A stretch of 64,000 bases of DNA from Agromyces bracchium. Its GTDB lineage: Bacteria > Actinomycetota > Actinomycetes > Actinomycetales > Microbacteriaceae. Below, piece after piece: positions 182 to 2,509 of this stretch. The notes beneath the pieces are model-generated. The model did not search any database. It saw only the letters and a program-made list of their open reading frames with translations, and was not told the origin of the DNA. Within the stretch, counting starts at the first letter, position 1; every line of letters begins with the position of its first letter. The translations under genes were made by a program, and so were the position numbers. The stretch covers positions 1-64,000 of the forward strand of contig NZ_WMLB01000025.1 of the NCBI RefSeq assembly GCF_009709675.1, given 5' to 3'.

Positions 182-589
182 TCAGCTGCGCGATGCGCTT
201 CCGGCACCCGTCGTCGACTCGTCGCGCTCGATGAGCGGGGCCACAGGGATCGCCGGGCAGTCGCGCCAGAGGCGCTCGAGACCGTAGTACATGCGCTCCT
301 CGCGGTGGAAGACGTGAACGACGAGGTCGCCGAAGTCGAGCAGGGCCCAGCGTCCGCCGTCGCGTCCCTCGCGGCGCGCGACGTCCTGGCCCTCCTCGCG
401 GAGCGCCTCGACGACCGCATCGGCGATCGCGACGACGTTGCGCTCGGCAGAGCCGGTGACGAGCAGGAAGACGTCCGCGAACGGAAGCGGCTCGGACACG
501 TCGAGTGCGACGAGGTCCTCACCGCCCTTCGCGTCCGCTGCGCGCGCAGCGATGGCGAGCAGGCGGTGTGCGTGGTCGGTTGCGGTCAT
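182..589 (-). CDS. rsfS: ribosomal silencing factor RsfS
   Basis: A 135-residue protein of the RsfS/Iojap family. Family members bind ribosomal protein L14 on the 50S subunit and block subunit joining, damping translation when nutrients run low. The conserved core is visible: ALDVSEPLPFADVFLLVTGS (about residues 28-47), GRWALLDFGDLVVHVFH, and the REERMYYGLERLW end, where most homologues read FYxLExLW. It is the last gene of the nadD cluster, 52 nt after the proline-rich membrane protein, which matches the usual nadD-rsfS linkage. ATG start with GAGG just upstream. Confidence 0.93.
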   Translation of the reverse strand: MTATDHAHRLLAIAARAADAKGGEDLVALDVSEPLPFADVFLLVTGSAERNVVAIADAVVEALREEGQDVARREGRDGGRWALLDFGDLVVHVFHREERMYYGLERLWRDCPAIPVAPLIERDESTTGAGSASRS

Positions 590-641: not shown

Positions 642-1913
642 TCAGAAGAGCCCCGCCATCGCGCCGACGACGAGGGTCGCCACCACGCCGAGCGCGAGCA
701 CGCCCGCGGTGACGGCGAGCACGAGCGGCACGTTCATGCCCTCCTTGCTCGGCGGAGCCATCATGGCCTTGCTCGGCTGCTGCGTGCTGATCGCCCGGGT
801 CGCCGCGACCGGCGCGACACCGGGGCCCGCCAGGTCTTCGACCGAATCGAACAGGCGGTCGACGTCGCTCGAGTCGATCTGGCTCGGGTGCACACCGGTC
901 GCACCGTAGCTGCGGGGCAGGTCGATCGACCCGGTCACGATGATCTCGCCGCTCGGTGCGAGCTGCTGGCCGAGCGGGCCCTCGTCGGGCAGCGACGGCA
1001 GGATCAGCGCGTTCGTCGTGGTAGGGACCCCACGCGGCGAGCCGCCGCGCGAGAGCAGCTGGTCGTACGGCTCGGAGTGGTCCTCCGGGAGGTTCAGCTG
1101 CGAGGTCCAGTGACCGACGGGCTTCGGAGCGGCGACGGGCTCGTCGAGCCCGGCGTCGACGGTCGTGTGCGGTGCCGCGGCGCGAGACGGCGCCGGCTGG
1201 TGGGGGTGCCGCGGCGGTTGGAACTCGTCGCGCGGCCGCCCTGAAGCGGGCGCCTGCGGCTGGCGCTGCGCAGCGCCGCCGGCGGGCATCGGTCGCTGCG
1301 GGGCGGCCTCCTGCTCGACTTCGTCGATGTCGTCGAAGCCGTCTCCCGAGTGCGACTCGAGCATCGCGCGCAGCTCGCGACGGGTCAGCGTGCGCTCGGG
1401 CGTCGTCTGCGGCGCGGGCGCGCTTCGCGGCGGCCCCTGCGGGGGCCGCGGCGAGCCGCCGCCGGGCGGAACCTGCCCCGGATACGGCCGGTTGTCGACC
1501 GGAACGGGCATCGGTCCCGACGTCGTCGCGGACCGCGGCGGCTGCGCGGCGCGCTGCGGGGCCTGGGCCGGCGCACCGGGCGCGGGCGCAGGCGACCGCC
1601 TGCGCGGGTCGTTCCACCCCTGCGGCGGTCGCTGCGCCGGCGGGGCCTGGCGCGGGTCGGCCTGACGCTGGGGCGGGCCCGACGGCCCGCCGGGGGCGGT
1701 TCGGGCGGGCTGCGCGGCGCGTGGGTCGGGGCCCTGCGAGTAGGCCGGCTGTGCCGGCTGCTGCGGGTACGGCTGCGCCGCCGGCGCTGGAGGCTGGGCC
1801 GGAGCTGGTGCGGCGCCCTCGGGCGACGACGACGCGGCGCGCTGCTGCTCCAGCATGCGCTCGCGCTCGCGCATCTCGCGGCGCGTGAGCGGCGGTTCCT
1901 GCGACGACGTCAT
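642..1913 (-). CDS. proline-rich tail-anchored membrane protein of unknown function
   Basis: 423 residues, not recognised as a named family. The N-terminus is charged ([17 protein letters not shown], about residues 9-25). It is followed by roughly 250 residues rich in Pro, Ala, Gln and Arg that look disordered. A second copy of the same short motif, [12 protein letters not shown], occurs near residue 175 before an acidic patch. The last ~25 residues form one hydrophobic helix ([20 protein letters not shown]), so the protein is probably anchored by its C-terminus with the long tail in the cytoplasm. The start codon overlaps the nadD stop by 4 nt (ATGA), indicating translational coupling. Many actinobacteria have an LCP-family envelope protein at this position, which suggests but does not prove an envelope or division role. 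Confidence 0.85.
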
Positions 1914-2509
1914 TCGACACTCCGGTAGAGGTGGTGCTTGGAGATGTACTGGACGACCCCGTCAGGCACCAGGTACCACACCGGTGATCCCCGGTGCACT
2001 CGATCCCGGCAATCGGTCGACGAGATCGCCAACGCCGGGACTTCCAGCAAGCTTACGTCCTGCTCGGGCAGTCCCGAAACGGACAGTACATGTCCCGGTC
2101 GACTCACAGCCACGAAGTGCGCGAGGTTCCAGAGCTCCTCCACGTCCTTCCAGGACAGGATCTGCGCGATCGCATCGGCGCCAGAGATGAAGAAGAGGTC
2201 GGCGTCGGGCCGCTCCCGGCGGATGTCTCGGAGCGTGTCGATCGTGTAGGTCGGCTTCTCTCGGTCGATGTCGACCCGGCTGACCGTGAACCGCGGATTC
2301 GACGCGGTGGCGATCACGGTCATGAGGTAGCGGTGCTCCGCCGGCGTCACGACCTCCTTGTAGTACGGCCGGCCGGTCGGGACGAACACGACCTCGTCGA
2401 GACCGAACTCCTGCGCCACCTCGCTGGCCGCCACGAGGTGCCCGTGGTGGATGGGGTCGAACGTGCCGCCCATCACGCCGAGGCGCGGGCGCCGCGCTGC
2501 CGAGGTCAT
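1910..2509 (-). CDS. nadD: nicotinate-nucleotide adenylyltransferase
   Basis: 199 residues, typical length. It joins nicotinate mononucleotide and ATP to give deamido-NAD in NAD biosynthesis. The nucleotidyltransferase signature [12 protein letters not shown] near the N-terminus contains the HxGH active-site motif, and SSTDCR near the C-terminus is the second ATP-binding motif (SSTxxR). It starts at ATG 16 nt after the 72-residue membrane protein and its stop overlaps the next gene, so 72-aa gene, nadD, proline-rich protein and rsfS look like one transcript. Confidence 0.96.

Follow-up and report, generated by a model that had tools for sequence, protein, structure and literature searches.

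A twin-motif, tail-anchored protein between nadD and rsfS in Microbacteriaceae carries a putative docking motif common to peptidoglycan-cleaving enzymes

Between nadD and rsfS, the genome of Agromyces bracchium carries a gene whose product belongs to no known family, which raises the question what this protein does and why it bears the same short motif twice. We addressed this question starting from the window, i.e. the whole analysed stretch of 64,000 nucleotides, in which all features described here lie on the minus strand. The gene (642..1913) starts with ATG and encodes a protein of 423 amino acids, hereafter called the slot protein. Its upstream neighbour is nadD (1910..2509), whose stop codon overlaps the start of the gene in the sequence ATGA (1910..1913); downstream, after a gap of 52 nt, follows rsfS (182..589; PF02410, 4.8e-28). 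An earlier note on this DNA had called the gene translationally coupled to nadD; the ATGA overlap is indeed present, and coupling may be inferred from it. A tRNA-Ala(GGC) gene is located directly downstream of rsfS (27-102), and an ORF of 72 amino acids with a hydrophobic stretch and without a Pfam family lies between proA and nadD (2526-2744). A search of plasmid records returned no match.

Profile searches of Pfam, NCBIfam and PDB assigned the slot protein to no known family, in agreement with its earlier description as uncharacterised. Pfam gave zero matches for the window protein up to E = 1, so that it is not an LCP or LytR_C protein (PF03816, PF13399), and 35 family members remained unmatched up to E = 0.1; the family was not found in NCBIfam either. 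Against the PDB, the profile of the full protein gave two weak matches over the proline-rich part (best E = 0.057), none of them credible, and a profile of the conserved stretch ahead of the membrane helix (C-block, see below) gave 0 matches at E ≤ 10. Searches of open papers, judged by the titles and abstract openings of the entries listed, gave nothing that describes the motif or the slot protein. The proteins share an N-terminal motif, a second copy of it, the C-block, a C-terminal membrane helix and nadD as upstream neighbour, and by these features they form a new family.

The architecture given in the earlier note, a 423-residue protein with two copies of LTRRE(M/L)R, a Pro/Gln/Ala region and a single C-terminal helix, was recovered in full from the reading frame, its composition and an AF2 model. 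Motif copy 1, LTRREMR, comprises residues 9-15 (1869..1889), and a helix predicted at residues 11-28 (1830..1883) with a pLDDT of about 90 starts inside it. The linker that follows (residues 29-282, 1068..1829) is disordered according to AF2 and its composition (24% Pro, 16% Ala, 10% Gln) and holds motif copy 2, LTRRELR (residues 176-182, 1368..1388), where a helix is predicted at residues 178-188. An alignment of Microbacteriaceae proteins revealed a feature absent from the earlier note, namely about 110 conserved residues ahead of the membrane helix. This juxtamembrane C-block (residues 283-390, 744..1067) has the pattern TGE..TGSIDLP..GSTG..D..D.D..PV.ASRAVST and occurs in Microbacteriaceae. 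The protein ends with a membrane helix predicted by AF2 at residues 394-420 (654..734). The AF2 model, based on 50 sequences, reached a mean pLDDT of 57 and contained no overall fold (pTM 0.20); its helices are limited to residues 11-28 and 394-420, both confident, and 178-188 and 349-361, both weaker. Copy 1 therefore opens the sole confident helix outside the membrane. The long N-terminal part is probably cytosolic, with the C-terminal helix serving as a tail anchor.

The capping box and the hydrophobic staple are rules for the start of helices; S/T-x-x-E capping boxes favour S and T, and D and N cap helices too. With its T or S, an E or Q (or A) three residues on and hydrophobic residues on the flanks, the motif looks like a capping box with a hydrophobic staple. 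The two arginines R11 and R15 are spaced by one helix turn. An arginine is by itself unfavourable where a helix begins, so their invariance (see below) would point to contact with a partner.

The earlier note had proposed a comparison of the locus across Microbacteriaceae, and in this comparison the motifs proved to be kept in relatives. With nadD as bait, the best 80 loci of a longer list were used, and the window protein was aligned with those of 73 of them (n = 74). The seven loci left out comprise three at contig ends (L016, L035, L038), of which L016 and L035 still show the first motif, three in which the slot holds no gene (L075, L088, L091) and L064, which lacks the first motif in the frame chosen. 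One frame was set by hand (L027), and another requires a TTG start 215 nt past nadD (L072). Two patterns, both set after inspection of the sequences, were counted, a loose one, [TS]R[RK]xxR, and a strict one, [TS]RR[EQA][ALMIV]R. The first copy is present in all 74 proteins partly by construction, because the motif pattern helped to choose start codons; with L064 included as a negative case, the figure becomes 74 of 75. At least two loose copies were found in 69 of the 74 proteins, the other five having one copy only, while shuffling of residues 26 to the end gave an expected second copy in 0.84 of 74 proteins (maximum 4 in 1000 shuffles). The strict motif occurs at least once in 73 and at least twice in 50 of the 74. 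R11 and R15 are invariant in all 74 aligned proteins; R11 and R/K12 belonged to the start-codon pattern, R15 for most proteins did not. Copy 1 reads RK rather than RR in 11 proteins, and its first position is T (50) or S (24), never D or N. Among the other genes called by a simple GC3 rule near nadD and in the window (499 genes, 156,149 aa), the strict motif was found twice, apparently in one and the same gene of two Arthrobacter-type loci, vs 123 times in the 74 slot proteins.

A profile of the C-terminal part (A3) matched 184 of 199 Microbacteriaceae genomes and 82 of 85 genera, including some genomes of 0.9-1.5 Mb; it gave no match in the remaining 15 genomes, or in 7 of 179 when only high-quality genomes are counted. 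In a sample of the order, the C-terminal profile matched 16 of 149 genomes, of which 10 were strong matches and all from Microbacteriaceae; the six out-of-family matches (E 1e-4 to 0.008) lie mostly over the membrane-helix end of the profile and were not accepted as members. The full protein was matched in 12 of 20 genomes of a sample of relatives, namely the own genome and 11 of the 12 further genomes of its genus (G001 gave no match), and none of the 7 from other families. In Microbacterium loci such as L036, L039, L041 and L057, each of the two motif copies has a T[AG][SA]xP[VI][IV]-like element behind it, e.g. RTASVPVITP, which suggests a longer repeated unit. A genome of 1.4 Mb (G046), in which the C-terminal profile gave two C-block matches, encodes a second protein of slot-like type that contains SRRQLR and has its membrane segment at the C-terminus (L292, G046:C17:58138).

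Outside the family, we inspected the slot at 40 rsfS loci, 20 sampled from the class and 20 from the order, mostly one or two per family. The statement of the earlier note that the position is often occupied by an LCP-family enzyme in other actinobacteria holds for 13 of these loci, in which an LCP and/or LytR_C protein scored above the Pfam cut-off (three of them, L135, L138 and L147, within the order), with two more below it, and so is borne out in part. At 12 loci nadD and rsfS are close together (gaps 21-317 nt) without such a gene, and in four the slot was left unclassified (L125, L137, L144, L149). Nine loci (L136, L139, L140, L142, L143, L145, L150, L153, L154) encode in the slot a protein that bears the motif and has a membrane helix close to the C-terminus. 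All of these except L140 have at least two loose copies, the eight coming from five other families of the order. The tails of the 15 LCP-type proteins contain the loose motif in four cases (shuffle mean 0.96; 17 of 2000 shuffles reach four) and the strict motif in two (shuffle mean 0.06; 3 of 2000 reach two).

Does the motif occur beyond the locus? A profile of 30 positions (A2), made solely from 22 motif windows of slot proteins, was run on 12 genomes. Among the matches read beyond the locus were M23 proteins (L157, L170, L180), MltG proteins (L162, L163, L181) and a CHAP protein (L175), all confirmed by Pfam, and three proteins without family, two of which (L161, L173) bear the motif close to the C-terminus while the third (L171) has a degenerate motif; several matches at E > 0.04 (e.g. 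L165, L176, L184) were by appearance due to chance. In 60 genomes, A2 gave 147 rows at E ≤ 0.05, of which 86 are slot proteins, recognised by a nearby match of the C-block profile or, for seven genomes, by reading the locus (nadD upstream in 7/7, rsfS detected downstream in 6/7). The other 61 rows lie elsewhere, a count that rests in part on detection luck, because A2 misses true copies, as seen from the MltG motif of the own genome, which is not listed even at E ≤ 10. Peptidoglycan-cleaving enzymes make up 43 of these 61 rows: 25 M23 rows (24 proteins), 11 MltG, 4 S13 DD-carboxypeptidases, 2 NlpC/P60 (one just under the Pfam cut-off) and 1 CHAP, classed by Pfam except for MltG, which was classed by position and open-frame length. 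The remaining 18 comprise two bPH_2 proteins, one S26 signal peptidase, two DUF2510 proteins, one FtsX-like permease, one LMWPc protein, one slot-like paralogue, five proteins without family and five short ORFs or spurious frames. Some enzyme tails hold two copies (e.g. L256, L258, L265). In the own genome, A2 found nothing but the slot protein at E ≤ 0.05; at E ≤ 10, with 150 of 240 candidates scored, it gave two slot matches and six others, the best of which (L097) is by eye an acyl-CoA ligase and was judged a chance match.

MltG provided an independent check, since the tails of this enzyme were picked regardless of the motif. MltG (PF02618) is present in all 60 sampled genomes, which represent 60 genera, and the strict motif was found in 35 of the 60 tails (last 250 residues; absent from 25), whereas 1000 shuffles that kept the composition gave it in 0.31 tails on average and in 3 at most. 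The loose motif occurs in 44 of 60 (shuffle mean 5.7, maximum 13), the capping-box form in 28 of 60 (shuffle mean 0.11, maximum 4), and the MltG of the own genome carries RTRRELREMEQRQ (L215). Because A2 had found only 11 MltG rows in the 60 genomes and thus missed most true cases, absence of a protein from that search means little. In the 36 whole MltG tails with a strict motif, it lies 24-262 residues ahead of the membrane segment (median 64); in slot proteins the median distances are 371 residues for copy 1 and 284 for copy 2. For the tails of MltG and M23 proteins, which were taken as open stretches, the true start codons are unproven. In 13 of 21 motif-bearing M23 proteins, the hydrophobic segment ends with xPAxA (e.g. 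VPANA), roughly 45-240 residues past the motif, with cleavage sites judged by pattern only and no proper membrane segment detected by the script in two of the 21; for this reason the M23 tail may form the n-region of an exceptionally long signal sequence.

The reading we favour, to which we give an even chance, is that the motif is a cytoplasmic docking or targeting helix of wall enzymes and that the slot protein, with two copies and no enzyme domain, serves as a membrane scaffold or as a competitor. The docking element, [LPMTQR]-[TS]-R-R-[EQA]-(L/A/M/I/V)-R, would be a short cytoplasmic helix which, in Microbacteriaceae and some relatives, is common to peptidoglycan-cleaving enzymes that are anchored in the membrane or exported; R11 and R15, on one face of this helix, would contact a putative receptor. 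The enzymes would present the motif in their tails, tens to hundreds of residues ahead of the membrane segment. The slot protein, with two copies on a long flexible tether, a C-terminal helix as anchor and no enzymatic domain, might gather or occupy this receptor where the wall grows or the cell divides, and its hold on the receptor could set the place and time of wall-enzyme placement. The idea of a docking helix, already raised in the earlier note, gains indirect support from the invariance of R11 and R15, the predicted helix, the twin copies in slot proteins of five other families of the order and the presence of the motif on wall enzymes. Neither of the findings that the note would have taken as a refutation, a profile hit to a known family or loss of the motifs in close relatives, turned up. 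The note's scaffold for a membrane-bound complex stays a proposal. PopZ and PodJ are disordered polar scaffold proteins; by description, the slot protein resembles them in its long Pro-rich disordered region with short interaction helices. In a wider form, which we hold more tentatively and at somewhat less than even, Microbacteriaceae and relatives would have a cytoplasmic address code reserved for their wall cutters: a single hub would recognise the one helix motif on the inward-facing tails of MltG, M23, S13, NlpC/P60 and CHAP enzymes, and the slot protein would serve this hub as membrane scaffold or act as its competitor. If true, several different wall cutters would be coordinated at once from inside out. 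Together with an enzyme-less partner found in almost the whole family, a motif shared by the inward-facing tails of different enzymes offers a concrete handle on the open question of how bacteria control the position and timing of several wall cutters, as it comes down to one peptide, two arginines and one putative receptor. Such a code could also account for the unusually long N-terminal tails ahead of the membrane segment in many M23 enzymes found here, and it constitutes the first functional hypothesis for a near-universal, undescribed gene of Microbacteriaceae.

Several other explanations have to be weighed against a docking helix. The slot protein might be a degenerate LCP enzyme which lost its outer domains and kept the cytosolic tail and membrane helix of an LCP/LytR_C ancestor. 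Both kinds of protein share the gene position, an N-terminal tail and one membrane helix, and the motif in some LCP-type tails (four loose, two strict) would be compatible with such descent. However, the slot protein has neither domain by Pfam, its membrane helix is C-terminal, similarity was found in the motif only, gene replacement fits the data equally well, and wide conservation with invariant residues speaks against a mere relic, so that we consider this origin doubtful. A role confined to the operon, as a membrane tether for RsfS or NadD, would explain the conserved order nadD-X-rsfS and the ATGA overlap; we think it very unlikely, as at 12 of the 40 loci the two genes are close without a gene of this kind and the motif is also found on unlinked wall enzymes. 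The T or S of the motif could instead be the target of a kinase and the motif a phospho-switch for a phospho-binding domain. Neither D nor N, although both can cap a helix, ever stands at its first position, but T/S was part of the start-codon pattern for most proteins and S/T-x-x-E capping boxes prefer these residues anyway; this possibility appears unlikely to us.

Twin-arginine (Tat) targeting motifs follow the consensus S/T-R-R-x-F-L-K and directly precede the hydrophobic region. The slot motif resembles them in its first five positions, [ST]RRx(hydrophobic), and candidate tail-anchored Tat substrates have been noted particularly among actinobacteria (PMC10924467). Nevertheless, the next position, where Tat wants a hydrophobic residue, is R15 in 74 of 74 proteins, copy 1 reads RK in 11 of them, a second, internal copy would be senseless, and the motif is far from the membrane segment both in MltG and in slot proteins, where the median for copy 1 is 371 residues. 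We therefore did not classify the slot protein as a Tat substrate and regard this reading as extremely improbable. A rather improbable alternative is a sorting signal read during export, i.e. a functional counterpart of the YSIRK/GXXS motif of staphylococci and streptococci. That motif directs precursors to septal membranes, where they are secreted, with the murein hydrolase LytN mentioned as one of them (PMC5962339). Likewise, the motif described here would, within very long n-regions, steer precursors to membranes of the septum or growth zone, the slot protein acting as a local organiser. The signal-peptidase-like xPAxA ends of 13 of 21 M23 proteins and the S26 signal peptidase with the motif in its own N-tail (L271) agree with this; as far as sequence tells, however, neither MltG nor the slot protein is a precursor that is cleaved, and the distance from motif to membrane varies widely (24-262 in MltG). 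YSIRK/GXXS is nonetheless the closest functional parallel, as it too is short and lies within the cytosolic portion of wall-associated proteins that are exported, among them a murein hydrolase. It is a parallel and not a case of membership: the string YSIRK is absent from the translated window protein, and the motif found here differs in sequence, lies far from the hydrophobic segment and occurs also on MltG and twice in an enzyme-less protein. Septal targeting by the slot motif is proposed by analogy.

Some motif-bearing proteins deserve mention in their own right. In M23 proteins such as L246, L249, L253, L255, L268, L278 and L280, and in others, the hydrophobic segment starts 80-290 residues into the open frame (starts unproven) and has a signal-peptidase-like, VPANA-like end, with the motif in the preceding stretch. 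The S26-type signal peptidase (L271, G036:C1:2313853) has LTRREAR at residue 18 of its open frame, and two bPH_2 proteins with membrane segments (L272, L276) bear the motif in their N-terminal part. Three adjacent genes, two NlpC/P60-like and one M23, each carry the motif (L261, G039:C32:43500-50000) in a genome in which the slot C-block profile gave no match. L161 (G221) and L173 (G216), both without a Pfam family, have in common WR[QE]TWG close to their ends, and in L161 a membrane segment precedes the motif; the two possibly represent one more motif-bearing envelope family.
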